A DNA stretch of 64,000 nt from Chloroflexota bacterium (GTDB lineage: Bacteria; Chloroflexota; Anaerolineae; Aggregatilineales; Phototrophicaceae): contig JAIUNI010000001.1 in NCBI GenBank assembly GCA_020161935.1, forward strand, positions 1,426,001 through 1,490,000, in the 5' to 3' direction. Below are positions 23,235 through 41,950 of the stretch, piece by piece (position 1 is the first letter of the stretch; every line of letters begins with the position of its first letter). The notes under the pieces were generated by a model. The model had not been told where the DNA came from, searched no databases, and saw nothing but the letters and a program-made list of their open reading frames with translations. A program made the position numbers and the translations under genes.

Positions 23235-24380
23235 ATGAACCGTTACATGCGACTTGTACTCATACTCATTGTTCTCGCGGTTGGCGGATGCAACCTATCC
23301 TCTCAACCACCGACGAGCGAACCAATCGATGTTCCAACCTCTCAAGCGGGCGGGCGGCCTACCGTCACCATTACCTCGCCGGCAGACGGTGCCGAGGTCA
23401 TGTCCGGCACGCAGGTTTTCGTCACGGCAACCGCCACCGACGCGGTAGGTGTAACCCGTATGCAGTTGCTCGCCAACAACCAGATTGTCAAAACGATTTC
23501 TTCTGAGTCCCCAGCGGGTCAGCGGAACTTCGAAGTCATTTTGGATTACACGCCGCGCCAAGAGGGCGAAGTCAACTTACAAGTCGTGGCTTACCGTGGC
23601 GCGATTGCCAGCGATCCGGCTTCGGTCGACATCAACGTCAAAGCGCAAGCGTCTCAGGTGCAGCCGACCCAGCAGCAGTCCTCAGGCGGGAATAGCGGAG
23701 GCAGCGGCGTTCCCGCTATCGACCCGAATGACCCCACCTGCCGCGCCCTCACCAATACCGGCTTGAACCTCCGCAGTGGGCCGGGAACGGTTTATGATCG
23801 CGTCGGCTTGGTCGCGGGTGGCGCAGTTGTCCCGATTATCGGGCGCGTCGGCGATAATTCGTGGTGGCAGGTGCGCTACGGCATCACAGTTGGCTGGATC
23901 AGCGGTCAATACACGTCCATCTATGGGATTTGCTCATCCATTCCGGTCATCAGCATCCCGCCGACACCGACCCCAACCGGCAGTACACCAACGGCGGTGC
24001 CAACCGTTACCCGCACCCCACCACCTGTACCGACCATCACCGTGACCCCCGGCAAGGCGGATCTTGTTATATCGAGCATCGCTGGCCCGACCAGCACAAC
24101 AGTCGCCGCGAGTCCCGTGACCTACTCGGTGACCATCACCAATACTGGCAGCGGCCCAAGCGGCACCTTTAACAATAAGATCCGGCTGCCAAACGGCATG
24201 GATACCGACTTGGGTGTCGTCTCCAACTTGAATGCTGGTGAAAGCATCAGCCTCACTATTGAAATCACCTACACCGCCGCGACCTCCTACACACTTGTCG
24301 CGATGGTCGATACCGGTAGTCAGGTCAACGAAGTGAGCGAGGTCAACAACACCGCTACCTTGCTCATAACCGTATCCTAA
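23235..24380 (+). CDS. Lipoprotein with Ig-like, SH3b and CARDB domains
   Basis: A 381-residue exported lipoprotein. The signal peptide ends in a lipobox (LAVGGC, Cys19). A bacterial Ig-like domain runs from about residue 43 to 135 (VTITSPADGAEVMSG...). After a Gln/Ser/Gly linker, an SH3b domain spans about 165-235 (LNLRSGPGTVYDRVG...WWQVRYG...GWISGQYTSIYG). A Thr/Pro-rich linker leads to a C-terminal CARDB adhesion-like domain (about 275-381). SH3b domains often bind peptidoglycan, and CARDB and Ig-like domains occur in cell-surface adhesins. It probably sits on the outer face of the cytoplasmic membrane or envelope. It is a single gene with its own terminator. Confidence 0.85.
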   Translation: MNRYMRLVLILIVLAVGGCNLSSQPPTSEPIDVPTSQAGGRPTVTITSPADGAEVMSGTQVFVTATATDAVGVTRMQLLANNQIVKTISSESPAGQRNFEVILDYTPRQEGEVNLQVVAYRGAIASDPASVDINVKAQASQVQPTQQQSSGGNSGGSGVPAIDPNDPTCRALTNTGLNLRSGPGTVYDRVGLVAGGAVVPIIGRVGDNSWWQVRYGITVGWISGQYTSIYGICSSIPVISIPPTPTPTGSTPTAVPTVTRTPPPVPTITVTPGKADLVISSIAGPTSTTVAASPVTYSVTITNTGSGPSGTFNNKIRLPNGMDTDLGVVSNLNAGESISLTIEITYTAATSYTLVAMVDTGSQVNEVSEVNNTATLLITVS

Positions 24381-24497: not shown

Positions 24498-27400
24498 ATG
24501 GCAACACGACTACTCGTCATTCACCGTCAGTTGGTTTTCGCCGTCACCATCAAGCAGGCGCTTGAACAGACCGGCGGCTTTGCTGTGCATCCGTTCACCA
24601 AAGCCGAGGCCGCGTTCGACTTCCTGCGGGATCATCCACAAGATATAGCGCTGGTTGACTTCAATCTACCGGGGCGTTCCGGTGCGAAAATCATTCAGCA
24701 GCTTCGCAGTTTGCAGCCCGACATCGCCATCATCGTCACCCCCCAGCTCTCGGCGGACGACCAACGCTCATACGGCGTGCAAGGCTCACTCAATTCGCCG
24801 TTTAGCGCGCGCGACCTCCTACCTTTATTACAAGATGCGCTTGACGAAGCACCGAATGAAAACCTACGAGACTCTGCGCCGCTCTCCGGTGGGCAAATGA
24901 CCACCAGCAACCTCGGCGACCAGAAGCGCATCAAACGCCAACAGATGGGTACGACCCAGAATTTGGGTAGCGAAGCGCCTGAAAATAAAAATGAGCCATC
25001 ACAAACGCATCTGCTCAATACTGAAGAAAATAAGCCCGAAACGCGGCAGCTAGGCGAGCTACCCAGTCAACCGCCGCAGCGTCCCTTCGTTGCGGATAGT
25101 GAACGCCCATCAGGTCGCCCGACGACGCGCCCCTTCACCGGTGAACCGGACTACAGCGCACCTCCGCCACCGCAGCCGACGCGCAAGCCGGTTGATCCGT
25201 TCAAAACACGCAACTTCGAGGATGATTTCGAACTCAACGATTTGCGTCCGCCAAAGACGGAACCCTTAGTATCGAAGGAAGCACCGCCACCCACCATGCC
25301 GGAGGTTGACCGCTTCCAAACACGCAACTTGCAAGATCAGTCACCGGAACCGGAAGAACCTAACTATGGCACGCACATCCTGCCGGATATTCCCACCGGC
25401 AGCGAAGAGGATTCGTGGCAACCATACCAGTCAACAGATGATGAACCCGATCCTTACGACGATCCGGTACAAACACGCAACTTGGATCGGCAAGACCCGT
25501 TCGGCACACGCCCATTAGATGGTGGCGGAACAACCCCACTGCCCCCTTCCCCGCCGGAATTCTCATCGCTCGACCGCGTATTGCAGAGTTTCGCGATGGA
25601 AGAACCCTTAGCAGACGACATGGATACCCCTGCCGTCCCCACGAAGGACTCTGATGCGCTGCGTCAGTTCATGGCGACCAGCAGCAGCAGTGAAGACGCA
25701 GGCTTCTTTGATGATGTGCTGGGCGCGATTGAACCTGACCTTTCTGAAAAGCCGAAGCAGCAGCGTCAGGTTGACTTTGAAGGTTTGGTTAAGTCGATGC
25801 AGCGGAACGAACCGCAAAGCCGCTTACCAGATCGTCAGCAGCAGTTAATGGATTTCGTATTAACCAGCGGCATGGACTCGGTTTTGGAAGAAATCGAGAA
25901 AACCAAAACAGGCAAACTGCCGAAGTTAGCCGACCAACCACCCGAAACGCGACCGCTGCCGCGCTCAACCACGCCACCGCCTTCCATATCGAACGCGAAC
26001 TTCGAAAAGTTGGCACTAGAGGAGCCGCCGCTCCCGACGCTGGAGGAAAACGGAACCGTCAGTGATTTGCTCGTCGGTATTGCCGACAGTAACTTCCGCG
26101 ACGTGCTGGCACTCCTCAACGACTCGCCGGGTGAACCGAGCGCCCCAACGCCGCCGCGTATGCCGAAGGCAGCCACACCGCCACCCTTACCGGCTGTACA
26201 AACCGACAGCCAGTACTTGGATGACTTTCTACAATCGACCGATGTTGACTCGGACTCGGTTCGCACAGCACCACCACCGCGCCCGCAGGCTGACCGAACT
26301 TACGACTTCAACTTTGACTACGACGATGATGACGACGGCGCAACCGTCGCCGGTGTCGTGCTGCGTTCGACCACCGAAAACACCACAATGCCGGGTGAGT
26401 TTTCGCTCGACCAGTTAATGTCGGACATTAACGACCGGTTGACCAGCCACAAGTTAAAGGTCAAACCGCTGCCGTCGTGGGATATGGATACGACCGCCTT
26501 CCACGCACCGGTTACGGATGTTCCGCCACCGCCTGCGGTACCGATGAGTCCGAGTAAGCGGATGCCGGGTGAGCCGAGCTTCCTGCCTGAAATGTTCCCG
26601 GTAGAGGAAATGATCCCGCCGGAACTGCCCGAACTCGAAGCCGAAGTTGCCGAAGTCTGGACAACGCGGGCTTCCGAACCCAGCTTGGAAACCATCGAAG
26701 AAGTGGATGCCAACGCCGAAACAATGGTCGAAATGGGTTACTTTGACGAACCGCAGGTCGAAGAAGAAATACCCGAAGCCCCTGCTGCGATTGACGCGGA
26801 TATGTTCTCTGGCATCTTCGATGAAGCCACCCAATATGACGACGATACGCCGCGCTACGACAGCGAAGCCGAATCCTCCAGCCAGCAACCCATTTACGGT
26901 TGGGGCGAACCGCTCGTTGAAACTGATATTGACGTAACCGCCGCGTGGCAAGAACCCGAAATACCCGACGAAGCAACACCCCAGTGGATTACGGCGGACG
27001 TTCAACCGGAAGCCATTCTTCCCCCTGAACCGAGCATCGCCGAGGATTGGGATACGCTCGAATCAGTTCCCACATTCGACGAACCGGTCGCGGATTTCAC
27101 TGAGTATCCGACCTATGAGGAACCGATAGCCGCTGAAACACTTGAAAGCGACTGGGATACAGGTTGGGACGTTTCGCAGACGATTGCCGAGCCACCCGTC
27201 GAACCGATCAGCGTTGCGTGGGATGAACCACAAGCGGCTGCTGAAACACCAACTATCAGTCTGACCGAAGAAGCCAAGATCGCCCAATTGGCTTTGAACC
27301 TCACACAAGTCTCGTTGGAAGTCAGCGCTGAAGGTACAATCCTAACGCGCGATAACGGCATCATCGCGGTCGCTGGACACCTCTCTCAAGACGATGTGAT

Positions 27401-28046
27401 TGAACTCGCCACAACCATCAATAACGATTGGGGAACTGGTGGGCAAGGTGCGCGTCTGCGCTTCATTACCCTGCCAAGCAGCGGCAAAGAATACATGCTC
27501 TACTCGACCGGAACCGAAGACGATCTCATTCTGTCGATGATCTTTGCCGGCTCGACCCCGCTGCGGGTCATCCGTCAGCAGGGTCAGCGCTTGGTGAAGG
27601 CGCTGGGCGAAGTACCGGAACCGGAAATTCGGCTGGCGAATCCCGAAGTGTTCGCGCCGAAACGCGAAGTCCAGCCCGTGGAAGAAGCACTAGAACCCTA
27701 TGCCTACGTGTGGCTCGTACAAAATCCCGAGCAGCCGTTAACCAGCGCCGTCGCGCAATCCATTAGCGCGGGCTTAACGATCCAACTGAGCGAGATGAAC
27801 TGGCAAATCGAACAGTTGCAGGTTCGCGACGAGTATATCTACCTGTTGGCGAACATCCCCGGTGAAGAACCATCCTATTCCGTCGTTCGAGACCTGAAAC
27901 AGCGAGCAGCATCCATCGCCCAAAAGCAGGATAGTGAGCTAATCAACCAAGATATGTGGGCGGATAGCTATCTCGTGTTGTCCCCCGGTCGCGAGTTAGC
28001 GCCAGACGAAATTCAAGAGTTTATCGACTTCCAACGCATGATGTAA
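24498..28046 (+). CDS. Pseudo-receiver protein with long acidic linker, roadblock-like domain and C-terminal degenerate IS200/Y1 transposase-like domain
   Basis: An 1182-residue protein of unknown function. Residues 1-120 resemble a CheY receiver: Asp in DIALVDFNLPGRSG is kept, but the acidic pair is VIHRQ and the lysine position reads NSPF, so phosphorylation chemistry is probably lost. Residues ~120-920 are low-complexity, acidic and Pro-rich, with a short motif of type TR-[NPQ]-[LF] repeated about eight times before residue 490. About 923-1040 looks like a Roadblock/LC7 fold (LEVSAEGTILTRDNGIIAVA...). About 1062-1182 follows the IS200/REP-transposase order (AYVWLVQNPEQPLTSAV, EYIYLLANIPG, SVVRDLKQRAASIA, MWADSYLV), but the HUH histidines are replaced by Tyr (YIY). 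The domain calls are by eye. A scaffold or signalling role is an inference. Confidence 0.7.
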   Translation: MATRLLVIHRQLVFAVTIKQALEQTGGFAVHPFTKAEAAFDFLRDHPQDIALVDFNLPGRSGAKIIQQLRSLQPDIAIIVTPQLSADDQRSYGVQGSLNSPFSARDLLPLLQDALDEAPNENLRDSAPLSGGQMTTSNLGDQKRIKRQQMGTTQNLGSEAPENKNEPSQTHLLNTEENKPETRQLGELPSQPPQRPFVADSERPSGRPTTRPFTGEPDYSAPPPPQPTRKPVDPFKTRNFEDDFELNDLRPPKTEPLVSKEAPPPTMPEVDRFQTRNLQDQSPEPEEPNYGTHILPDIPTGSEEDSWQPYQSTDDEPDPYDDPVQTRNLDRQDPFGTRPLDGGGTTPLPPSPPEFSSLDRVLQSFAMEEPLADDMDTPAVPTKDSDALRQFMATSSSSEDAGFFDDVLGAIEPDLSEKPKQQRQVDFEGLVKSMQRNEPQSRLPDRQQQLMDFVLTSGMDSVLEEIEKTKTGKLPKLADQPPETRPLPRSTTPPPSISNANFEKLALEEPPLPTLEENGTVSDLLVGIADSNFRDVLALLNDSPGEPSAPTPPRMPKAATPPPLPAVQTDSQYLDDFLQSTDVDSDSVRTAPPPRPQADRTYDFNFDYDDDDDGATVAGVVLRSTTENTTMPGEFSLDQLMSDINDRLTSHKLKVKPLPSWDMDTTAFHAPVTDVPPPPAVPMSPSKRMPGEPSFLPEMFPVEEMIPPELPELEAEVAEVWTTRASEPSLETIEEVDANAETMVEMGYFDEPQVEEEIPEAPAAIDADMFSGIFDEATQYDDDTPRYDSEAESSSQQPIYGWGEPLVETDIDVTAAWQEPEIPDEATPQWITADVQPEAILPPEPSIAEDWDTLESVPTFDEPVADFTEYPTYEEPIAAETLESDWDTGWDVSQTIAEPPVEPISVAWDEPQAAAETPTISLTEEAKIAQLALNLTQVSLEVSAEGTILTRDNGIIAVAGHLSQDDVIELATTINNDWGTGGQGARLRFITLPSSGKEYMLYSTGTEDDLILSMIFAGSTPLRVIRQQGQRLVKALGEVPEPEIRLANPEVFAPKREVQPVEEALEPYAYVWLVQNPEQPLTSAVAQSISAGLTIQLSEMNWQIEQLQVRDEYIYLLANIPGEEPSYSVVRDLKQRAASIAQKQDSELINQDMWADSYLVLSPGRELAPDEIQEFIDFQRMM

Positions 28047-28171: not shown

Positions 28172-30928
28172 ATGGCCTCGCGTCCCATGTTTTACATTAT
28201 CGACGGTTATGCCTTGGCTTATCGGCAGTTCTTTGCCCTACCGGTTGCCAGCTTCAGCACCCGCAGCGGCGAACCGACCAATGCGGTCTATGGGTTTGCC
28301 CGCACCATTCTCGATATTATGCAGCGCAACCAACCGGAATATATCGCGGTCAGCTTTGATCGCGGTCTCAGCGGACGTGAAACGTGGTACGGCGATTATA
28401 AGGGTACGCGCGAAAAGATGCCGGGGGAACTCCTCACGCAGATTGACCGCATCGCTCAACTGGTTGAAGCCTTCAATATGCCCCTCTTGGCGATGGACGG
28501 TTACGAGGCCGACGATGTGATTGGCAGTGTCGCGCCACAGGCCGAAGCCCAAGGAGTTGATATTCGCGTGGTGACTGGCGACCGTGACATTCTGCAACTG
28601 CTGACCGATCACGTCACTGTCCAACTGCCCCGCAAAGGCGAAGCGGATGTCGTCTTTGACGTGGCTAAATTCCGTGAAGAGTATCAACTCGAACCGTGGC
28701 AGCTTGTCGAATGGAAAGGTCTAGTCGGCGACACCTCCGACAACATCCCCGGTGTAAAAGGCATCGGTGACAAAGGTGCGACCAAACTGCTCCAGCAGTA
28801 CCAGACCGTCGCCAATATTTACGACCATATTGACGAGATCACCGGCGCGACACAGAAAAAGCTGATCGAAGGCAAAGACTCTGCCTTCCTCAGCCAGCGC
28901 TTGGCGACCATTCAAAAAGATGTGCCGATCACCCTGAACCTGCAAGCCTGTACCGCCCACGACTATGACCTTCGTAAAGTCGATGAATTATTCGGCCTGC
29001 TGGAATTCCGCCAGCTTCGCGACCGCTTGCCCAAAGCCAGCGCTCAGATGAGCCTGTTTGATACAGCAGCGATCAGCGATATTCCGGCTGAGGAGGAAAA
29101 GAGGCCACCAGTCGTTGAAACGATCATCGTTCAAGACGAAGCCGGTTTACAAGCCCTCGTGGAAACACTGAATGCTGCCAAAACCATTAGCTGGGATACC
29201 GAAACCACCGGAACTGACCCGATGTCAGCCGCGCTCGTAGGCATTTCGGTCGCCGTTGATGGCGATAAAGGCTACTACATCCCGGTGGGCCACAAGGATG
29301 GCACACAGCTACCCTTAGAAACAGTGATGAATGCTCTGCGCGAGCCGTTGAATAATCCCGCCATCGGCAAACAGGGACACAATGCCGACTACGACCTGCT
29401 TATGCTCCAGCGGTATGGTGTGGATGTGAAACCCGTAACCTTCGACACCATGATCGCCGAGTGGTTACGCAGTCCCGACAGCAAATTCCTCGGTCTAAAA
29501 AACCTTGCCCGTCAAGAACTACAGGTCGATATGACCGAAATCAGCGAACTCATTGGCACAGGCAAGAAGCAAATCACGATGGACTCGGTATCCATTGAAC
29601 GCGCCGCCCCTTACGCCGCAGCCGATGCAGCCTTGACTCACCGTTTGGCCGATTTACTACGCCCGAAGCTCGAAGAAATGAGCCTGATGGGGCTTTATCA
29701 CGACTTGGAGTTGCCACTGATTCCCGTGATTGCCGCCATCGAGCGCGTCGGTGTCGTCCTTGATAAGCAGCACCTTGCCGAACTCAGCACCCGCTTGAAT
29801 GAGATGTTGGCGCAGGTTGAGGAAGAAATCTATACCGTCAGCGGCTATGGCAAGTTCAACATCAACAGCCCCAAACAACTCAATGATGTGCTATTCGGCA
29901 AACTTGGTCTTTCAGTCGAAGGTTTGAAAAAGACGACGCACGGCTACTCGACTGATGCGACAGTGTTGGAAAGCCTCAGCGGTCAGCACATCGTCGTCGA
30001 TAAAATCCTCAACTACCGCGAAGTGAGCAAGCTGAAAAGCACCTACGTCGAGGCTCTCCCTACGCTAATTAATCCCCTCACCGGACGGGTTCATACCAGC
30101 TACAACCAAACAGGAACCGTAACGGGGCGCATTAGCAGTAACAGCCCTAACCTGCAAAACATTCCGGTCCGTACCGAATTAGGGCGCGAGGTACGCCGTG
30201 CGTTTGTCGCCGCCGAAGGGACGAAATTGCTATCAGTCGACTACAGCCAAGTCGAACTCCGTATCCTCGCCCATATCAGTCAAGATAAAACCCTTTTGGA
30301 AGCCTTCGCTGCCGGTCAGGACATTCACGCCGCGACCGCTGCCGCTGTTTATGGCATCCCCGTTGAAGCAGTCACCAAAGCACAGCGTTCATTCGCCAAG
30401 CGCGTGAACTTCGGTTTGATCTACGGCATGGGTGCATACCGCTTGGCGCGGGATAGCGAACTCACACTGGCAGAAGCGCGTGAGTTTATTAAGACCTACT
30501 TTGAACGGCTGCCCGGTGTCGAAAAATACCTCGACGACACCAAACAAGCCGCACGGCAAGGCCCGATTACAACGCTGTTTGGTCGCCGCCGTGAATTTGG
30601 GCTGCTGCGCCGTGCCGACTCGACCAGCAATAAGGTCGCGGTGCAGGCGGAAGAACGTGTCGCCATCAACATGCCCATTCAGGGTACAGCCGCCGACATT
30701 ATGAAGCAGGCCATGATTAACCTGTACGGCGAGTTGCAAGCCAAAAAGCTCACTGGCAAGATGATCTTGCAGGTACATGATGAACTCGTCCTTGAAGTGC
30801 CGGATGCCGAAGTTGCCGAAACGCGAGATGTGGTCGTTCGTGTCATGGAAGATGCTTATAAGTTGGACGCACCGTTACGCGCCAACGCCAACGTGGGCGA
30901 TAACTGGCGGGATATGATCAGTATCTAA
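28172..30928 (+). CDS. polA: DNA polymerase I
   Basis: A 918-residue, full-length Pol I for gap filling and primer removal. The N-terminal 5' nuclease domain (about 1-290) includes YEADDVIGSVA and GDRDILQLL, then WKGLVGDTSDNIPGVKGIG. The 3'-5' exonuclease domain (about 310-500) keeps the metal-binding motif SWDTETTGTDP, so proofreading is probably active. The polymerase domain has motif A (LLSVDYSQVELRILAHIS), the O-helix (RSFAKRVNFGLIYGMG) and motif C (QVHDELVLEVP). AAGGA lies 9 bases before the ATG. Confidence 0.97.
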   Translation: MASRPMFYIIDGYALAYRQFFALPVASFSTRSGEPTNAVYGFARTILDIMQRNQPEYIAVSFDRGLSGRETWYGDYKGTREKMPGELLTQIDRIAQLVEAFNMPLLAMDGYEADDVIGSVAPQAEAQGVDIRVVTGDRDILQLLTDHVTVQLPRKGEADVVFDVAKFREEYQLEPWQLVEWKGLVGDTSDNIPGVKGIGDKGATKLLQQYQTVANIYDHIDEITGATQKKLIEGKDSAFLSQRLATIQKDVPITLNLQACTAHDYDLRKVDELFGLLEFRQLRDRLPKASAQMSLFDTAAISDIPAEEEKRPPVVETIIVQDEAGLQALVETLNAAKTISWDTETTGTDPMSAALVGISVAVDGDKGYYIPVGHKDGTQLPLETVMNALREPLNNPAIGKQGHNADYDLLMLQRYGVDVKPVTFDTMIAEWLRSPDSKFLGLKNLARQELQVDMTEISELIGTGKKQITMDSVSIERAAPYAAADAALTHRLADLLRPKLEEMSLMGLYHDLELPLIPVIAAIERVGVVLDKQHLAELSTRLNEMLAQVEEEIYTVSGYGKFNINSPKQLNDVLFGKLGLSVEGLKKTTHGYSTDATVLESLSGQHIVVDKILNYREVSKLKSTYVEALPTLINPLTGRVHTSYNQTGTVTGRISSNSPNLQNIPVRTELGREVRRAFVAAEGTKLLSVDYSQVELRILAHISQDKTLLEAFAAGQDIHAATAAAVYGIPVEAVTKAQRSFAKRVNFGLIYGMGAYRLARDSELTLAEAREFIKTYFERLPGVEKYLDDTKQAARQGPITTLFGRRREFGLLRRADSTSNKVAVQAEERVAINMPIQGTAADIMKQAMINLYGELQAKKLTGKMILQVHDELVLEVPDAEVAETRDVVVRVMEDAYKLDAPLRANANVGDNWRDMISI

Positions 30929-31048: not shown

Positions 31049-31966
31049 ATGAAAGACTTCCTCACGCTAGCCGATTGGTCAACCAAAGAACTATGGGGGC
31101 TAATTGATCTCGCAGTACATTTAAAGTTTGAGTGGAAATCAGGCGGAAATCGTCCGGTGATGCACGGCAAAGTGCTAGCAATGGTTTTTGAAAAACCGTC
31201 ACTGCGTACGCGCGTATCGTTTGAAGTCGCAATGAAGCAGCTTGGCGGCGACGCGATGCGACTTGGGCCAGATGAAGTCGGCCTCGGCAAGCGTGAAAGT
31301 ATTGCCGATGTGGCGCGTGTGCTGTCGGTTTATACACAAGGGATCATGGCTCGCGTATTTGACCATCAATATGTGGTGGACTTGGCGAAGTGGGCAAATA
31401 TTCCGGTTATCAATGGCTTGAGTGATGCCCATCATCCCTGTCAGGCGATGGGCGACATGCTTACGATTTATGAGCATTTTGGTCGGCTCGAACGCCTAAA
31501 AATAGCTTACGTTGGGGATGGGAACAATGTCGCCGCTTCACTGGTGCTGGCTGCTGCACACTTCGGTATGCACTTCACCATTGCCTCACCGGATGGATAT
31601 ACACTGTCAGAAGACGCGCTGGAAGATGCTGCCCCGATTGCCGAACGCAACGGCGGTAAGATTGAAGTCTTTAACGATCCCGTGAAAGCGGTTGAAAGCG
31701 CCGACATCATCTACACCGATACATGGGTCAGCATGGGACAAGAGAAGGAAACAGCACAGCGTATGGAGATGCTGCAACCGTATCAGGTGAATCAAGCGCT
31801 GGTTGACCACGCCAATAAATACGCCATCGTCATGCACTGTTTACCGGCTCACCGCGGGCAAGAAATCACCGACGATGTAGCGGATGGCACGCATTCAGTC
31901 ATCTTCCCGCAGGCGGAAAATCGCCTTCATATGCAAAAAGCAATTTTGGTCGAATTAATGGGTTAG
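31049..31966 (+). CDS. argF: Ornithine carbamoyltransferase
   Basis: ArgF makes citrulline from ornithine and carbamoyl phosphate in arginine synthesis. The 305-residue length is standard. The carbamoyl-phosphate site is EKPSLRTRVSFE (the usual STRTR reads SLRTR), with HPCQAMGD near residue 130, and the ornithine-binding motif MHCLPAHRG near residue 268. DTWVSMGQE, also typical of the family, is present. No other arg gene lies next to it; a TPR protein gene follows by 23 bases and may be co-transcribed. Confidence 0.96.
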   Translation: MKDFLTLADWSTKELWGLIDLAVHLKFEWKSGGNRPVMHGKVLAMVFEKPSLRTRVSFEVAMKQLGGDAMRLGPDEVGLGKRESIADVARVLSVYTQGIMARVFDHQYVVDLAKWANIPVINGLSDAHHPCQAMGDMLTIYEHFGRLERLKIAYVGDGNNVAASLVLAAAHFGMHFTIASPDGYTLSEDALEDAAPIAERNGGKIEVFNDPVKAVESADIIYTDTWVSMGQEKETAQRMEMLQPYQVNQALVDHANKYAIVMHCLPAHRGQEITDDVADGTHSVIFPQAENRLHMQKAILVELMG

Positions 31967-31989
31967 TCAATAGACTCTGGATAGAAACT

Positions 31990-34221
31990 ATGCCCGCAAA
32001 CCGAGAACTTTACGAACGCGCAATGAATGCCGGCTATAATGCCGCATGGGATAAGGATTGGCCGCAAGCCATCGCTGCTTATGGTCAAGCGATTCAAGAA
32101 TTCCCGGATGACCATGAAGCGCATATCAACTTAGGATTGGCGCTTCTCGAAGTCGGGCGCTTGGACGATGCACTACGGGTCTACACTCGCGCCCACCAAA
32201 TTAACCCGAACGACCCCATTCCGCTGGAAAAAAGTGCGGATGTGCTGGAAAAAGTCGGGCGGCTCAAGGAAGCGGCACAGCAGTATATCAACGTCGCCGA
32301 GGTCTACCTCACCCAGCGCGACCTTGATAAAGCCATCTTCAACTGGCAGCAAGCTACCCGCCTGACACCCGGTATGGTAGCCATCCATGCCAAGCTCGCT
32401 CAAGCCTACGAACGACTGGGGCAAAAGGGCAAATCAATCCGTGAGTATCTTGTTCTCGCGCAGAACTTCCAGCGTCTAGGCGAAAATAACAAAGCGCTGG
32501 TCGCCGCTCAACGCGCCCTCAAACTCGACCCCAAAAATGTCACCATTTTGAATGCGCTCCGCGCGTTGGAAAGTGGGTCAGAGCTATCGCTGCCGACACT
32601 GGATAAAGCCGATGCAGCGCCAGCCAAAAATGATAGCAACAGCAGCACATCTAAAATTCAGCAGGTCATTGAGGCTGATCCACTCGGACCAATGGGCGAA
32701 ACCATGAGCTATGCGATGGCGATGCTCGCAAGTTTCGTCATGGAAGGCGGTGCGCTGGATGCATCGGGTGGTGATGCATTACAAGCGTTGGAACTCCAAC
32801 GGCAGAGTATCAACGATCAAGCGATTCAAGCCTACCAAAGAGCCGAGTCACGCTTGAATCATCCTGCTCTAAAAATGAACTTAGGTGGTTTGTTAGTGCT
32901 GGCAAATCGGAACGATGAATCAATCAAATTGCTGGGCGAAGCGGCTATGCACCCGCAGCTTGCACCCGGCGCTTTCCATGCACTCGGTAAAGCCTATTTT
33001 GCGCTGAATAAGCACAAGCAGGCCATCAACTATCTGCTCCAAGCTGCTCAAGCGGTTGACTCGGCTCACGCTATGTCCAGCGAAACGGATATGCAAATCG
33101 CCGATTCATACGAACACCTACTCGAAGTACTGCAAAATCGACCGGTCGAAACCTTAACTGCTATCAACAAACGCTTTACCGACCTGCTAACTGGCAAAGA
33201 ATGGAAACAGCGTATCGGCGAAACACGCCGCCAGTTGGAGGACACACTCCGCAGTCAGGGCGAGCAAGGTGTTGTCGATATTCTGATCGCCAACCGCAGC
33301 AACGAACTCACCGAAGCCGTCGCCCGCATTGACCGTTACACCCGTCAGGGTTTATACACGCTGGCGATGGACGAGGCGCATCGTGCGGTCGAATTCTCGG
33401 CCTTCTACCTGCCTGTCCATGTCCGAATGGCCGAAATCATGATGAAGGAAGGCCGCGTTCGTCAGGCAATCAATAAGTACAATATGATCGCCAAGACCTA
33501 CTTAGTTCGCGGCGAAAATGACCGTGCTGCCTCCATCCTCAGCGAAGTACTGGAGATGGCTCCGCTCGATATTTCGGTCCGCGAAAGCCTGATCGAACTG
33601 CTGGAAAGTGAACAGCGTTGGGACGAAGCCCTCGATCAATATGTTGATTTGGCGGATACCCATCATCAGCTCGGCAACTTCGATATGTCGCGCGATATTT
33701 TCGGCGCAGCAGAACGCCTAGCCAACCGCGTCGGTGCAACGCCGGATAAAATTGTCCGCATCAAACATCGCATCGCCGACATTGACCAGATGCGTTTGGA
33801 TATTCGTAAGGCGCAGAAAACCTACGACGAAATTATCCAGCTCGTGCCGGATGACGAACGCGCTCACCGCATGTTGGTTGACCTGCACTACCGTCAAGGT
33901 AGCCCGTCTGAAGCCATTAAGAAACTCGACGCGCTGCTGAGAATATATGCAAAGAACAAGCAGCCCAACCGCATCACCCAATTGTTGGAAGAACTGGTCA
34001 CCACCTACCCCAACGATACCGGCCTGCGTTCGCGATTAGCGGCCATCTACACGCAGCTTAAGCGCAAGAATGATGCCATTCGCCAGTTGGACGCGCTGGG
34101 CGAACTTCAACTTGAAGCGGGCGCGCATCAAGAAGCAACCAATACCATTCGCCAAATCATTGCGCTCAACCCGGACGGTGTTGAGGATTACCGTAAGTTA
34201 CTCATGCAACTCGGTGGCTAA
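31990..34221 (+). CDS. Large tetratricopeptide-repeat (TPR) protein
   Basis: A 743-residue soluble protein built of TPR helices. Clear repeats run through the N-terminal ~200 residues (AWDKDWPQAIAAYGQAIQEFPDDHEAHINLGLALLEVGRLDDAL...) and again from about 300 to the end. A Ser/Thr/Asn-rich spacer sits around residue 215. There is no signal peptide or catalytic motif. TPR proteins act as interaction scaffolds. It ends 2 bases before the GTG start of cdaA, so it is likely co-expressed with the c-di-AMP synthase and could be a partner, though that is inference. Confidence 0.85.
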   Translation: MPANRELYERAMNAGYNAAWDKDWPQAIAAYGQAIQEFPDDHEAHINLGLALLEVGRLDDALRVYTRAHQINPNDPIPLEKSADVLEKVGRLKEAAQQYINVAEVYLTQRDLDKAIFNWQQATRLTPGMVAIHAKLAQAYERLGQKGKSIREYLVLAQNFQRLGENNKALVAAQRALKLDPKNVTILNALRALESGSELSLPTLDKADAAPAKNDSNSSTSKIQQVIEADPLGPMGETMSYAMAMLASFVMEGGALDASGGDALQALELQRQSINDQAIQAYQRAESRLNHPALKMNLGGLLVLANRNDESIKLLGEAAMHPQLAPGAFHALGKAYFALNKHKQAINYLLQAAQAVDSAHAMSSETDMQIADSYEHLLEVLQNRPVETLTAINKRFTDLLTGKEWKQRIGETRRQLEDTLRSQGEQGVVDILIANRSNELTEAVARIDRYTRQGLYTLAMDEAHRAVEFSAFYLPVHVRMAEIMMKEGRVRQAINKYNMIAKTYLVRGENDRAASILSEVLEMAPLDISVRESLIELLESEQRWDEALDQYVDLADTHHQLGNFDMSRDIFGAAERLANRVGATPDKIVRIKHRIADIDQMRLDIRKAQKTYDEIIQLVPDDERAHRMLVDLHYRQGSPSEAIKKLDALLRIYAKNKQPNRITQLLEELVTTYPNDTGLRSRLAAIYTQLKRKNDAIRQLDALGELQLEAGAHQEATNTIRQIIALNPDGVEDYRKLLMQLGG

Positions 34222-34223
34222 CT

Positions 34224-35087
34224 GTGGAACTGCTGTGGGCGCTCGATAACCTAACTTGGAAAGCCTTACTGGATATTCTCCTAGTTGGGTTAGTCTTTTT
34301 CGGGGCGAGTTTCCTCTTTAGAGGAACACAAGCCATCGCGCTGCTTCGGGGCTTGCTCGTCCTGCTCGTTGGGCTGTTGGTTGTCTCCAGCGTGCTCGAT
34401 TTACAGGCACTGCGGTGGATACTCCAGAATTTACTCCTCGTAATGGGCTTGGCTATTCCGGTTATCTTCCAGCCGGAGCTTCGGCGAGCGCTCGAACGCT
34501 TGGGACGCGCAGGTACGCTACTGAACCGTCAAGCACCCGAAAGCATACGGGCGCGGGTGATTGAGGAAATCAGTGTCGCGGCTGAAAAACTCTCTGAACG
34601 GCGGCATGGCGCACTAGTCGTCCTACAGCGCCGCAGCAGCTTGGAAGAATATATTAAGACAGGTATTCCCCTGCATAGTGATGTCACTTCCCAACTTTTG
34701 CTGACCGTATTCTGGCCGAAAACCGAGCTGCATGACGGAGCCGCCATCATTGACGAAACCGGACGTGTAGCCTCAGCCGCATCCGTATTACCACTAACAG
34801 CCAGCCGCAATCTGCCCGACCCCAAACTCGGCACGCGCCATCGTGCAGCATTGGGGATTAGTGAAGTCAGCGATGCCATCTGCATTGTCGTCTCGGAGGA
34901 GACTGGACGCATTTCAATTACCAGCGCAGGACGCATGATTCCGAAACTCGATAGCAAGCGCCTGCGAACCATCCTGACCGCCTTCTATGGCGATGAACGT
35001 AAAAACTCCACAACCACCTTAGGACAGTTCATCGAACGCAGCCAAGACTACCTAACATCCCTACGAGAACGTCGCAAACAGGCATAA
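34224..35087 (+). CDS. cdaA: Diadenylate cyclase CdaA
   Basis: CdaA makes cyclic di-AMP from two ATP at the membrane. The 287-residue protein has three N-terminal membrane helices (about residues 13-35, 38-56 and 65-85). The DAC domain carries the catalytic motifs DGA (in ELHDGAAIID) and RHR (in TRHRAALGISE). The start is GTG, 2 bases after the TPR gene stop. It overlaps cdaR by one base (TAATG), the usual cdaA-cdaR coupling. Cyclic di-AMP controls potassium and osmolyte balance and the cell wall in many bacteria. Confidence 0.95.
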   Translation: MELLWALDNLTWKALLDILLVGLVFFGASFLFRGTQAIALLRGLLVLLVGLLVVSSVLDLQALRWILQNLLLVMGLAIPVIFQPELRRALERLGRAGTLLNRQAPESIRARVIEEISVAAEKLSERRHGALVVLQRRSSLEEYIKTGIPLHSDVTSQLLLTVFWPKTELHDGAAIIDETGRVASAASVLPLTASRNLPDPKLGTRHRAALGISEVSDAICIVVSEETGRISITSAGRMIPKLDSKRLRTILTAFYGDERKNSTTTLGQFIERSQDYLTSLRERRKQA

Positions 35088-36370
35088 TGCAAAGGCAAAA
35101 TACCCGTAATCTAATCCTCGACAACATGCTCTGGTTCATTGGCTCAATGGTACTGGCGTTCTTCGTCTGGATGATTGCCACCTTCCAGTCAGACCCGATC
35201 CAGCAGCAGCGCTTCGGCGAACGTGTACCGATACGCATGAATCCCGATGCCGGTCTGCTCGTCACGTTACCGACAGTCGCAAACCGGCAGGCGAGTGTCG
35301 TCATCCGTGCGCCGAATTCGGTGATGGAGCTGCTGACGGGGGATGAAATATTAGTCACCGCTGACCTCACCGGACTTCCGGCTGGAGAACACACCGTCGA
35401 GTTGAAAGCGTCGCTGGCGCGCCAGCAAACCAGTATCGTCGATTTCTCGCCCCACCAGATGCACATTACGCTAGAAGAAGCAGCGCAGCGTCAAGTCCCT
35501 CTGCGTGCCATCATCATTAACGAACCGCCAGCAGGGTATTCACGAGACGAACCGACCTTTAACGTCAACCTCAATCAAGTGTTGGTGAGTGGGGCGGCAT
35601 CTAAAGTCAACTCAGTGGTCGCTGCTCAGGTTGAACTCGACTTGTTGCAGCGTCGTAACCCCATTGAGGTCGATCTCAAACTCACGCCGGTTGATGCTGA
35701 TGGCAACGTCGTCACAGATGTCACCCTTGACCCGCAGACGGTTCGCGTGAATGTCAACATCCGTCGTAGAGACGATGTCCGCGAAATCAGCGTACGCCCC
35801 AATGTACAGGGAACTCCGCCTGAAGGTTATGTTCTGAATGCATTGAGCTATGAACCGCAGTCGGTACTCGTGAGCGGTACGCCCAGCGAATTAGCCGCGT
35901 TAGCCGATACGCTTTCGACTCAACCTATCGATTTAAGCAGTCAAACAGCGAGTTTTGAGGTGTCGATTCCTATCGTCCTACCAAACCCCAATCTGGTTGT
36001 CATATCCGGTCAAAACATTACGGTCTCGGTCGAAATCGCGCCGCTAACAACCAGTCGACAATTTGAAAATATTCCAATTAAGGTACTGGGCTTAGGCACA
36101 AATCTTAGCGCGATCCTCGTACCAAATACGGTATCCGTTCTCGTGAACGGCCCACAGGCAGCCGTGAATGATCTGAGCGAAAGTGATGTAAATGTCATCC
36201 TCGACTTAAATGGATTAGCACCCGGCAACTATACCCTGCCCCTAACCATTTCTGTCGGGCAGGGCGAAATAGCAAAAGAAGGGGTCTCGGTGCTTCCCGG
36301 CGAAGTCGACGTTCAAATCATTGATAACACGATTCCCACCCCGACCATCGAACCAACACCAACTTCTTAA
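35087..36370 (+). CDS. cdaR: YbbR-domain protein, CdaA regulator
   Basis: A 427-residue protein with one N-terminal membrane helix (residues ~13-32, MLWFIGSMVLAFFVWMIAT) and four extracytoplasmic YbbR repeats. Typical repeat segments are VPIRMNPDAGLLVTLP, VPLRAIIINEPPAGYSRDEP, EISVRPNVQGTPPEGYVLN and IPIKVLGLGTN. In Firmicutes, CdaR binds CdaA and adjusts its activity. It overlaps cdaA by one base. The tail is a Thr/Pro stretch. Confidence 0.92.
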   Translation: MQRQNTRNLILDNMLWFIGSMVLAFFVWMIATFQSDPIQQQRFGERVPIRMNPDAGLLVTLPTVANRQASVVIRAPNSVMELLTGDEILVTADLTGLPAGEHTVELKASLARQQTSIVDFSPHQMHITLEEAAQRQVPLRAIIINEPPAGYSRDEPTFNVNLNQVLVSGAASKVNSVVAAQVELDLLQRRNPIEVDLKLTPVDADGNVVTDVTLDPQTVRVNVNIRRRDDVREISVRPNVQGTPPEGYVLNALSYEPQSVLVSGTPSELAALADTLSTQPIDLSSQTASFEVSIPIVLPNPNLVVISGQNITVSVEIAPLTTSRQFENIPIKVLGLGTNLSAILVPNTVSVLVNGPQAAVNDLSESDVNVILDLNGLAPGNYTLPLTISVGQGEIAKEGVSVLPGEVDVQIIDNTIPTPTIEPTPTS

Positions 36371-36414
36371 CGTCTCCACCTACGAAACCTTCCAATCATC
36401 TGATAAAATAATCG

Positions 36415-36441
36415 TAGGGGCGTGTCGCTGACATGCCCCTA
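36415..36441. repeat. Solitary TAGGG-type hairpin before der
   Basis: TAGGGGCGTGTC and GACATGCCCCTA form a 12-bp stem (one G-T pair) around the loop GCT, preceded by CG. It shares the GTAGGG start and small-loop design of the hairpins in the 19.9-20.6 kb array, so it is probably a dispersed member of the same palindrome type. Confidence 0.6.
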
Positions 36442-36469
36442 TTCATGTTGGATGAAAGGCAAATGGATT

Positions 36470-37876
36470 ATGGCGCGTAAACCGTTGGTCGCGCTGGTTG
36501 GTCGCCCAAACACGGGCAAAAGTACACTTTTTAACCGGTTGGTTGGTGAACGTATGGCAGTCACCGATCCGATTCCCGGAACAACACGTGATCGCATTCA
36601 ATCGGAATGCGAATGGACGGGTGCGACATTTAATGTAGTTGATACCGGCGGTATCGAAGTCTATCAACCGAAAGGCACGCGCGACACATCTCCGCTCGCC
36701 GAAGGTAGCATCGATTTCGTTCCCCAGATCAAAGCTCAGGCGATGCTTGCTATTCAAGAAGCCGATGTTGTCATCATGCTGGTGGATTCGACCCACGGTA
36801 TTACCGCAGCCGATGAGGAAATCGCCCAGATTTTACGGCGCAACGAAGGTAAACCCATTATCGTCGCCGCAAATAAAGCCGATAATTTATCGCGTACCGA
36901 TGATGCGTTTGAATTTTATGGGCTTGGTTTGGGTGAAGTTTATGCCATTAGTGCGATCCACGGCCTCGGCGTTGGCGACCTATTGGATGCAGTCGTCGCA
37001 GCCTTTAAGGACTTGCCGGGAATCAATGAAGACGACGACGAAGAGATCTTACGTATCGCAATCGTTGGTCGCCCGAATGTCGGTAAAAGCAGCTTACTCA
37101 ATCTGCTGATTGGCGAAGAACGGGTAATTGTAAGTCCTCATGCCGGAACCACACGCGACGCAATTGACACGGAAATCACTTGGCATGGTGAACCGGTCAG
37201 GTTAATTGATACGGCTGGTATCCGCCGCCGCGGGAAAATCGAACCGGGTGTCGAAAAACACAGCGTCTTACGTACGATGCAAGCCCTTGAGCGCAGCGAT
37301 GTTGCCCTGCTGCTCATCGATGGTGCTGACGGCATCACCGATCAGGATCAGCATATCGCGGGTTACATCAAAGATGCCTTCAAGAGCGTGGTATTAATCG
37401 TCAACAAATGGGACATCGTAGAAAAAGACGAACACACGATGAACCAGTTCTTAGATGACATTCGCATGAAGTTCGACTTCCTACCCGAGCCGCCTGTGAT
37501 CTTCATCAGCGCTCTTACTGGTCAACGTGTGCATCAAGTTTTGGAAACGGCTCACCGCGTCTGGCAAGCGCGATACCAGCGCATCCAAACCTCGGAACTC
37601 AACCGGCTTCTACGTGCGGCTGTGCAAAAGCACCCTGCCCCGACGAAGGGTACAAAGCGCCTGAAGTTGCTATACCTAACACAGGTTGCGGTCAACCCGC
37701 CGGTATTCCTATTCCATGTGAACGATACACGCTTGGTACACTTTACCTACAAACGGTATCTGGAAAACCAGATTCGAGCCGAGTTTCCCTTTGAAGGGAC
37801 ACCCATTCGCTTGAGCTTCCGCCCACGTGACGGCATGTTGGAAGACACCAAAAAGCCAAAGAAAATGGGCTTATAA
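36470..37876 (+). CDS. der: Ribosome biogenesis GTPase Der (EngA)
   Basis: Der is a double GTPase needed for 50S subunit assembly. Domain 1 has GRPNTGKSTLF and DTGGIE, domain 2 has GRPNVGKSSLL, DTAGIRRRGK and NKWD, and a KH-like C-terminal domain follows (about residues 355-468). I chose ATG 36470 (MARKPLVALVGRPN) with GAAAGG 10 bases upstream; an upstream in-frame ATG at 36452 and a GTG would only add residues read from the repeat hairpin. There is a small insertion after the first G3 motif (residues ~62-85). Confidence 0.96.
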   Translation: MARKPLVALVGRPNTGKSTLFNRLVGERMAVTDPIPGTTRDRIQSECEWTGATFNVVDTGGIEVYQPKGTRDTSPLAEGSIDFVPQIKAQAMLAIQEADVVIMLVDSTHGITAADEEIAQILRRNEGKPIIVAANKADNLSRTDDAFEFYGLGLGEVYAISAIHGLGVGDLLDAVVAAFKDLPGINEDDDEEILRIAIVGRPNVGKSSLLNLLIGEERVIVSPHAGTTRDAIDTEITWHGEPVRLIDTAGIRRRGKIEPGVEKHSVLRTMQALERSDVALLLIDGADGITDQDQHIAGYIKDAFKSVVLIVNKWDIVEKDEHTMNQFLDDIRMKFDFLPEPPVIFISALTGQRVHQVLETAHRVWQARYQRIQTSELNRLLRAAVQKHPAPTKGTKRLKLLYLTQVAVNPPVFLFHVNDTRLVHFTYKRYLENQIRAEFPFEGTPIRLSFRPRDGMLEDTKKPKKMGL

Positions 37877-39761: not shown

Positions 39762-40400
39762 TTGGAAACAACGACAAACCCTACGATGGTTCAAGAAACA
39801 GAAACGCCCGCTCTCCCCGCTACGGTTCAACGTCCAAACTTACGTCAGCATGGTTACGGGCGAGAAATCATTGAAACGATTATCCTCATCGGCGCAATTT
39901 ATGCGCTGGTTAATCTCGCCACGGTGCGGTTTATCGTCGAGGGGCCAAGTATGCAGCCTACTTTCCACACGGGTCAGGTCTTGATGATTAGCCGTGTCAA
40001 CTACCTGTTCGGTAATCCCCAACGTGGACAGGTGATTGTCTTCAACGCACCGGGCAAACCCGCCACTGAGCCGCCCTATATTAAGCGTGTCATCGGCTTG
40101 CCGGGCGAATTGGTCGAGGTACGGGATATGAAAGTCTATATAAACGGTCAAGAACTATACGAGCCGTATATCAATGAGCCGTGTACAGCAGGGAGCTGCC
40201 CCAACCGCACATGGCAGCTCGGCGAAGATGAATACTTCTTTATGGGCGATAACCGCAATCACAGCCTCGACTCGCGTTCGTTCGGCGGTGTCAAACGCGA
40301 GCGCGTGATCGGTGAGGCACTGGTGCGCTATTGGCCGCCGCAAGATTGGGGAATTGTAGGGACTCTCAATTATCCGGCTGATCCATTCGCTGCGCCGTAA
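39762..40400 (+). CDS. lepB: Signal peptidase I (first of two)
   Basis: Signal peptidase I cleaves signal peptides from exported proteins outside the membrane. The 212-residue protein has one N-terminal membrane helix (about residues 37-55), the nucleophile serine in VEGPSMQPT, the general-base lysine in YIKRVIGLPGE, and the box E motif MGDNRNHSLDSR. The start is TTG at 39762; ATG at 39786 is an alternative. A second, similar gene follows after 12 bases. Confidence 0.92.
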   Translation: METTTNPTMVQETETPALPATVQRPNLRQHGYGREIIETIILIGAIYALVNLATVRFIVEGPSMQPTFHTGQVLMISRVNYLFGNPQRGQVIVFNAPGKPATEPPYIKRVIGLPGELVEVRDMKVYINGQELYEPYINEPCTAGSCPNRTWQLGEDEYFFMGDNRNHSLDSRSFGGVKRERVIGEALVRYWPPQDWGIVGTLNYPADPFAAP

Positions 40401-40412
40401 TTTGGATACGGC

Positions 40413-41006
40413 ATGTCACAAACACCTAGCAAGTTTATTCGTCCGCGCCTACAGCGTAAGACTCGACTGCGAGAAATCGCGAACTTATTGCTGTTCCTGA
40501 TAGCGGTGTACACCTTGCTTGAGATGGCAGCCCCTCGTTCGGTTGTCCTTTCAACCAGTATGCAGCCCAACTTGGTCGAAGGGCAGCGCTTGCTCATTAG
40601 CCGTGTCCACTACTTATTTGGTAAGCCTCAACGCGGTGACATCGTCGTATTTGAACCGGCACCTTTCCAAGAAGATCAGGATCGGCTCATTAAAAGGCTC
40701 ATTGGGCTGCCCGGCGAAACGATTGAATTCCGCGAACAATCGGTTTATATTAACGGTAAACTGCTGGAAGAATCTTACTTAAACGAACCCTGTAAATCAG
40801 CCTTTTGCCCGGACGAAGCATGGGACTTAGCAGCCGACGAATACTTTATGATGGGGGACAACCGTAACCGAAGTCGCGATTCACGGGCATTCGGCCCAAT
40901 CAAGCACCAGCAAATTGTCGGGCGTGCAATTGTGCGCTGGTGGCCTCCGGCAATGTGGGGGTTTTTAACGTATACTTATGGTGAGACAACGACTGCTGCA
41001 CCATGA
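40413..41006 (+). CDS. lepB: Signal peptidase I (second, tandem paralogue)
   Basis: A 197-residue type I signal peptidase with one N-terminal membrane helix (about residues 22-42), Ser in VVLSTSMQPNL, Lys in LIKRLIGLPGE and box E MGDNRNRSRDSR. It shares much of its sequence with the neighbouring gene (NYLFGNPQRG versus HYLFGKPQRG), which indicates a local duplication. The serine motif differs (STSMQP instead of EGPSMQP), so the two may cut different signal peptides. It ends 21 bases before the zinc-finger gene that opens the BMC locus, so it may share its transcript. Confidence 0.9.
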   Translation: MSQTPSKFIRPRLQRKTRLREIANLLLFLIAVYTLLEMAAPRSVVLSTSMQPNLVEGQRLLISRVHYLFGKPQRGDIVVFEPAPFQEDQDRLIKRLIGLPGETIEFREQSVYINGKLLEESYLNEPCKSAFCPDEAWDLAADEYFMMGDNRNRSRDSRAFGPIKHQQIVGRAIVRWWPPAMWGFLTYTYGETTTAAP

Positions 41007-41027: not shown

Positions 41028-41315
41028 ATGATAGACTCTAGCGAATTTCCATGCCCGAATTGTCAAATCGGCATTTGCCAACCGAAGAAAACAACCTATC
41101 TAACCATTTATGATGGTATGTTAGTCAGCGTTCCCAATACGCCTGTCTGGCAGTGTGACATTTGCCAGTACCAAGAATTTGAACATCAAGCCATTAGCCG
41201 GCTCGAAACCTTGTTGGGTTTACAGGACTCGCAGCCGGAGCAAACCCGCAGTGCCGTTAAAGTGGCACCAATTGAACCTACTGAAGCCACTACCGTTCGG
41301 AGGATTAAGCCGTGA
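41028..41315 (+). CDS. YgiT-type zinc-finger protein at the head of the BMC locus
   Basis: A 95-residue protein with two CxxC pairs, CPNC (residues 9-12) and CDIC (residues 44-47), spaced as in YgiT/MqsA N-terminal zinc fingers, which usually carry a zinc ion. No DNA-binding HTH follows (MqsA has one), and the C-terminal 40 residues are polar. The last four bases overlap the GTG start of the BMC-T gene (GTGA), so the two proteins are coupled in translation. A role in regulation or assembly of the compartment is possible but unproven. Confidence 0.7.
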
Positions 41316-41950
41316 GTGTTGATCTACGCAGTTATGTTTTTCTCGATACTTTACAACCGCAGCACGCGGCCTTCATGGGAACGGTATCAAAAGGCTTCTT
41401 ACCAGTTCCCGGCGATGCCTCATTATGGATTGAAATTTCTCCCGGTATCGAAATTAACCGGATTACGGATATTGCGCTCAAATCAACCAACGTCCGCCCC
41501 GGAATGCAAATCGTTGAACGCCTATATGGGCTGCTGGAAGTCCATTCAGGCAGCCAAGCCGAAACACGGGCGGCGGGTGAAGCCATTTTAGAAGCGCTGG
41601 GTGTACGTGAGCAAGATCGCCTGAAACCGCGCATTATTTCGAGCCAGATTATTCGCAATATTGATGCTTACCAGACTCAACTGATTAACCGCCTTCGGCA
41701 TGGTCAGATGATCCTAGCCGGACAAACCATGTATGTACTAGAAGTCGAACCCGCAGCCTACGCCGCGTTAGCCGCTAACGAAGCCGAGAAAGCCGCCAAT
41801 ATCAATATCCTTGAAGTACAGGCCTTCGGCAGTTTTGGTCGTGTCTATCTTGGTGGTGATGAACAAGACATCATGGCGGGATACGGTGCTGCGGTAGCCG
41901 CGATTGAGGGCGTTGTCGGGCGCGAAATTGGTGGTGGGCGTAAGGAATAA
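41312..41950 (+). CDS. Divergent tandem-domain BMC shell protein (BMC-T)
   Basis: A 212-residue protein that looks like two fused BMC folds. The first (about residues 37-98) reads [20 protein letters not shown] then [19 protein letters not shown]. The second (about 140-205) reads [20 protein letters not shown], then [17 protein letters not shown] and [15 protein letters not shown] proteins form trimers that tile the facets of microcompartments and often have a larger gated pore. GTG start, overlapping the zinc-finger gene by four bases. The BMC-P gene follows after 6 bases. The domain assignment is by eye and rests on this context too. Confidence 0.75.

Follow-up and report, generated by a model that had tools for sequence, protein, structure and literature searches.

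The gene considered here occupies positions 24498 to 28046 (+) of the window, the 64,000-nucleotide stretch of DNA that was analysed. It is an intact open reading frame for a protein of 1182 amino acids, in which a degenerate receiver (REC), a long acidic linker, a Roadblock domain and a Y1 domain that appears to be dead follow each other. These coordinates and all domain calls of an initial annotation hold, including its atypical receiver (borne out by a Pfam Response_reg match above the cut-off in which the acidic pair and the conserved Lys are missing) and its probable Roadblock/LC7 domain (borne out by a profile match and a fold match to MglB). The fusion is thus as real as had been claimed; what had been taken for a single protein is instead a family that extends across several families of one class. 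It is a family of signalling proteins in one class of the Chloroflexota, the Anaerolineae, whose C-terminus is a former transposase domain.

The receiver comprises residues 1-117 (24498 to 24848, +), of which residues 14-87 match the Pfam model Response_reg (PF00072) with 35.5 bits against a cut-off of 30.2. The set of residues required for receiver phosphorylation (acidic pair, phospho-Asp, Thr/Ser, Lys) is incomplete in the window protein: D54 and T81 are kept, the acidic pair reads H9 R10, and the conserved Lys is replaced by S100. The pseudo-receiver of the window protein looks like a derived state, because a residue tally shows that several other families of the order possess a receiver with one Asp of the pair, the phospho-Asp and the Lys. 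The receiver model of the compact orthologue L106 has a pLDDT above 90.

The linker (residues 118-923; 24849 to 27266, +) is recognizable by its composition; its approximately 800 residues comprise 20% D/E and 14% P, amounting to a net charge of about -109. In orthologue L106, most of the linker has a model pLDDT below 50. Embedded in the linker of the window protein, at 24954 to 25958 (+), is an array of eight T-R/Q-x-L/F motifs with their Thr residues at T153, T182, T210, T237, T275, T326, T337 and T484. Only 0.66 such motifs are expected, so that the array is 12-fold over chance, and none of 2000 shuffles reached eight. Among 55 orthologues, 118 motifs were found against 18.5 expected, mostly in the genus of the window, while control motifs in the same comparison stayed near 1-3 fold and the other proteins of the window carry 9 motifs against 12.2 expected. 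The window genome has 45 FHA domain matches and 26 matches to Hanks-type kinases, and in the genus of the window the Thr residues of the array may be phosphorylated by such kinases and read by FHA domains. The array is missing from many orthologues and can therefore not serve a universal function of the family.

The Roadblock/LC7 domain is MglB-like and spans residues 924-1042 (27267 to 27623, +). No single-sequence match to the Pfam model PF03259 was obtained with the window protein, and the family list, drawn up over 28 orthologues with E values up to 1, contains none either; it is therefore a divergent member of the Roadblock group. A profile built from the 28 orthologues matches MglB (3t1r) in the PDB with an E value of 0.0013, and an AF2 model of residues 907-1182, computed with 29 orthologues, has a pLDDT of about 90 in this part. 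A fold search with the Roadblock part places MglB among the first matches (6izw, Z 11.3; 6h5b, Z 11.2), alongside further chains of the Roadblock type. Foldseek rows to Mon1-Ccz1 and CPLANE that covered both domains were rejected, as their rmsd near 19 Å marks them as one-domain matches stretched over two. Candidates for small GTPases are present in the genome, none of them adjoining the fusion gene, and a functional tie to MglA is unsupported by the gene neighbourhood.

The C-terminal Y1 domain (IS200-type transposase; residues 1064-1182; 27687 to 28043, +) is recognized at the level of both sequence and structure. Residues 1068-1177 match the Pfam model Y1_Tnp (PF01797, Transposase IS200 like) with 29.4 bits against a cut-off of 23 (E 9.3e-7, and E 1.5e-8 for the domain alone), the sequence of the window protein on its own retrieves the TnpA structures 2f4f (E 6e-6) and 2ec2 (E 1e-5) from the PDB, and the profile of 28 orthologues reaches 2f4f with an E value of 3.9e-15. 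In the AF2 model the Y1 part has a pLDDT of about 96, and when it is ranked against known structures the first 15 rows are all TnpAs (2fyx, Z 14.3; 2ec2, Z 14.1; 2f4f, Z 13.8). The initial annotation had named beforehand the predicted fold of the C-terminus as the point at which its reading could fail; both the AF2 model and the structural alignment give the Y1 fold.

Alignment to 2f4f reveals what has become of the catalytic site. The HUH motif (DHIHL in 2f4f) reads DEYIYLL in the window protein, with Y1113-I1114-Y1115 (27834 to 27842, +) in place of the histidines, as had been noted, and the catalytic Tyr, which lies within IKKYIEEQ in 2f4f, has been replaced as well, by F1175 (28020 to 28022, +) within IQEFIDFQ; the Gln at the Y+4 position (Q1179) remains. 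Among the alignments examined, no fusion Y1 domain possesses both HUH histidines together. The site mostly reads x-Y-V/I-Y in the family of the window; the first His alone is kept in L006, L045, L050 and L109, and the second His alone in the compact forms L147, L148, L149 and L153 of family f15 (KLVHLVV, LFIHMVV). Most members of family f9 read EYLQW at the HUH site and retain the Tyr, and L150 reads DYVQV; the families thus preserve different stages in the decay of the HUH motif. An intact relative, which the initial annotation had suggested looking for, is present in the genome of the window as an IS200/IS605 element: the TnpA encoded at L080 has both DHIHL and RYIAAQ, and its gene overlaps a tnpB gene. 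Hence, intact and dead Y1 relatives coexist in one genome. Within the fusion Y1 domains, W, Y and PGR positions are invariant. The isoelectric point lies between 4.1 (the value of the window protein) and 5.7 in all but one (7.0) of the 28 members from the order, most of which carry a net charge of -4 to -15 in this domain, as against a pI of 9.7 for the intact TnpA encoded in the window genome; the Y1 domains of family f9 are basic (pI 8-9.6).

Y1 proteins that lack the HUH motif are also found on their own. Three solo genes of family f9 encode proteins of 182-194 amino acids (L175:3327-3884, +; L176:8825-9370, -; L177:9617-10198, -), and in the tree described below these fall inside the group of fusion Y1 domains. 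Each of the three genes sits in a conserved cluster that also contains receiver-type regulators and further shared genes; they represent a possible second signalling use of the dead fold. A further solo lineage, in other Chloroflexota (L171:8274-8741, +; L172:8051-8524, -; also L142 and L145), has DRVYL in place of the HUH motif, is placed with the TnpAs in the tree, and adjoins an open reading frame of approximately 770 amino acids that starts with a CxxC zinc-finger-like motif (MQKCERC). This lineage looks like an independent domestication.

The fusion gene is preceded by a gene for a putative lipoprotein with Big_7, SH3_3 and CARDB domains (23235 to 24380, +), a neighbour conserved in synteny through much of the order, and is followed by the gene for DNA polymerase I (polA; 28172 to 30928, +; named from sequence) and by a conserved cluster of argF (also named from sequence), a TPR protein gene, cdaA, YbbR and der (31049 to 37876, +). 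This arrangement, from the lipoprotein gene to der, is common to many relatives, and the gene order in family f9 is fusion gene, polA, TPR. At 43 of the 60 loci with enough sequence, drawn from several families, polA is the next gene downstream on the same strand, mostly 4-130 nt away; it is not adjacent at the other 17. The linkage to polA is real and may point to shared transcription or to a role near replication. No mobile element surrounds the fusion gene, an earlier statement that is borne out by the housekeeping synteny conserved in relatives, and no tnpB gene lies beside it. A contig titled 'Bacteroidetes bacterium' (L081; JAPUDW010000104.1) carries the complete cluster, 80-97% identical to that of the window, and is probably a mislabelled metagenome-assembled genome (MAG). 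Farther downstream, the window contains two adjoining signal peptidase I (S26) genes (39762-41003), followed by a gene for a protein with a weak match to a BMC domain (41312-41947).

The fusion gene is present in one copy in the genome of the window, and a search among relatives gave a match in all 61 genomes, part of these matches being receiver-only. Complete REC-Roadblock-Y1 proteins occur in most genera of the family of the window and in several other families of the order, which, going by its named relatives, is the Aggregatilineales; named contigs of the same family belong to MAGs of Anaerolineae and Aggregatilineales. A profile of all 28 order members was too variable for scanning contigs, and a narrower one recovered 32 loci. 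Within the class, the complete architecture is also found in families f9, f12, f15 and f115. In the sample of genomes from the phylum, matches covering both Roadblock and Y1 are confined to the class, and hits from beyond it are to the Y1 part; the searches of class and phylum were both carried out on samples of genomes, within the phylum. REC-Roadblock proteins with a canonical receiver and without a Y1 domain (L070, L071, L151, L152, L154, L155, L157-L162 and L166) show the signalling core in sister families. One member of family f1 (L156; 7841-8668, +), which has the usual gene order with the CARDB lipoprotein gene in front of it, terminates with the Roadblock domain, showing that loss of Y1 can occur. 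In genome G042 there are two near-identical copies (L045:8901-10880 and L046:1239-3227), one of them an intact gene and the other split into a receiver reading frame and a Roadblock-Y1 reading frame.

In an unrooted tree of 84 Y1 domains, which rests on a short alignment of 121 columns, a single branch (support 94/87) parts all fusion domains from 20 TnpAs, with the three solo f9 genes on the side of the fusion domains and two other solo genes on the side of the TnpAs. Judged from these sequences, the simplest reading would be one capture followed by vertical descent. The Y1 domain is under strong purifying selection, with omega between 0.03 and 0.08: once pairs with saturated dS had been discarded, four usable pairs gave 0.027 (a rough value, as dS exceeds 2 in this pair), 0.076, 0.083 and 0.073, close to the values of the Roadblock domain in the same comparison (0.035-0.082).

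That the Y1 domain is a dead, domesticated transposase domain can be regarded as almost certain. We suggest that a REC-Roadblock signalling gene of the Anaerolineae acquired an IS200-type tnpA gene at its 3' end, apparently in a single event, and that the captured domain then lost its catalytic residues and became fixed as a non-catalytic part of the protein. Roadblock domains form dimers in MglB, which acts there as the GAP of a small GTPase, and Y1 domains form dimers in TnpA. The present protein would most likely be a dimeric signalling scaffold, loosely similar to RomR plus MglB, that the Roadblock and Y1 domains may hold together. Its (pseudo)receiver and long acidic linker would take input and recruit partners, the Roadblock domain may touch a small GTPase, the motif array in the genus of the window may add docking of FHA proteins after phosphorylation by Hanks-type kinases, and the dead Y1 domain would act as a partner-binding module. 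The initial annotation had proposed that the transposase fold was taken over for signalling or scaffolding. The takeover is supported by purifying selection, vertical inheritance, loss of both catalytic motifs and fusion to signalling domains; the function itself we infer. Taken as a whole, the combination of a domesticated dead Y1 domain with this scaffold mechanism is, in our view, somewhat better than an even proposition.

The linkage to polA is left unexplained by a scaffold for GTPases or FHA proteins, and it speaks for the strongest competing view, namely that a Y1 domain deprived of cleavage still binds single-stranded DNA or hairpins and that the protein, together with DNA polymerase I, couples signalling with the replication or repair of DNA. 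IS200 TnpA binds single-stranded DNA hairpins, and solved complexes of this kind are among the fold matches; polA lies co-oriented downstream at most loci, often at very short distance and in several families, and the Y1 domains of family f9 are basic, so that DNA binding stays possible there and partners may differ between families. However, the acidic nature of the Y1 domain in the order of the window disfavours DNA binding in that group and, when set against the basic intact TnpA, favours protein over DNA as the partner; moreover, polA is not adjacent at every locus. We consider this DNA-binding role rather unlikely.

The other explanations fare far worse than the scaffold that we prefer. 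A functionless, slowly decaying vestige would fit the loss of the Y1 domain in L156, but the omega values, which resemble those of the Roadblock domain, the presence of Y1 in most members of the order, and its invariant W, Y and PGR positions make such a vestige very improbable. One might also argue for a transposase that is still active, or was so until recently, and is degenerate in looks alone, given that the Pfam score exceeds the cut-off, that a tested f9 member exceeds the cut-off of the NCBIfam IS200 model, and that databases would label such proteins transposases; yet no member among those aligned has both histidines, the genome of the window holds one copy, housekeeping synteny is conserved and tnpB is missing beside the gene, so that hardly any weight can be given to this idea. 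Ferredoxin-like folds are common, and a chance resemblance to one of them might be suspected, but homology at the sequence level (E 3.9e-15 by profile, 1.5e-8 by Pfam on the domain), combined with a structural ranking headed by 15 TnpAs, refutes it for practical purposes and leaves it with a negligible probability. Going beyond the preferred scaffold, we tentatively raise the possibility, which we hold to be less probable than not, that pseudo-Y1 constitutes a new class of signalling domain, a transposase fold that has lost its catalysis and was recruited on more than one occasion as a binding module for signal transduction in the Chloroflexota, here coupled to the polA gene; an enzyme acting on single-stranded DNA may in this way have become a signal-dependent adaptor.

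Most accounts of domesticated transposases, such as those of the RAYTs or Cas1, describe proteins that retain their DNA chemistry. In the present family, a transposase fold of the IS200 type has been made catalytically inert and is held by strong selection within a signalling protein across a class, which would mean that the HUH/Y1 fold is able to work simply as an interaction domain. Automatic annotation with Pfam or NCBIfam can mislabel members of the family as transposases, and surveys that filter on HUH and on length miss such proteins; in one survey of Y1 proteins, sequences lacking the core motifs were excluded as non-functional and long fusions were dropped (PMC6006769). We saw no mention of a dead Y1 domain in a review of recruited mobile elements (PMC8987985), and our searches of the open-access literature yielded no account of a fusion between a Y1 domain and a REC or Roadblock domain, which is weak evidence of novelty.

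Among known systems, the TnpA proteins of IS200/IS605 elements (2f4f, 2ec2, ISDra2, IS608) share with the C-terminal domain the fold, homology over the whole length and, in the window protein, the Gln at Y+4. In contrast to them, the Y1 domain of the window protein lacks HUH and the catalytic Tyr, is acidic and is joined to REC, linker and Roadblock, and the fusion gene is present in single copy and stands in conserved synteny without tnpB; signs of mobility typical of IS200/IS605 (several copies, tnpB, patchy places) are not seen. The RAYT/TnpA-REP proteins are likewise Y1 proteins retained by their host outside an insertion sequence, but in the survey cited above they keep both HuH and Y (PMC6006769), neither of which is left in the window protein. 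Other REC-Roadblock proteins of the Anaerolineae, some of which are encoded beside polA (L070, L071), have the same receiver and Roadblock parts, yet they possess a canonical receiver and a shorter linker, and no Y1 domain. The nearest analogue, for which we claim no orthology, is the pair RomR and MglB of Myxococcus, in which RomR consists of a receiver followed by a disordered, Pro-rich acidic region, and MglB is a Roadblock protein that interacts with RomR (PMC12719032). Receiver, disordered acidic region and Roadblock domain are all found in the window protein as well; unlike in Myxococcus, no GTPase gene is adjacent, the three parts are united in one chain, and this chain ends in Roadblock and Y1, with the Y1 domain standing where RomR has its C-terminal helix.
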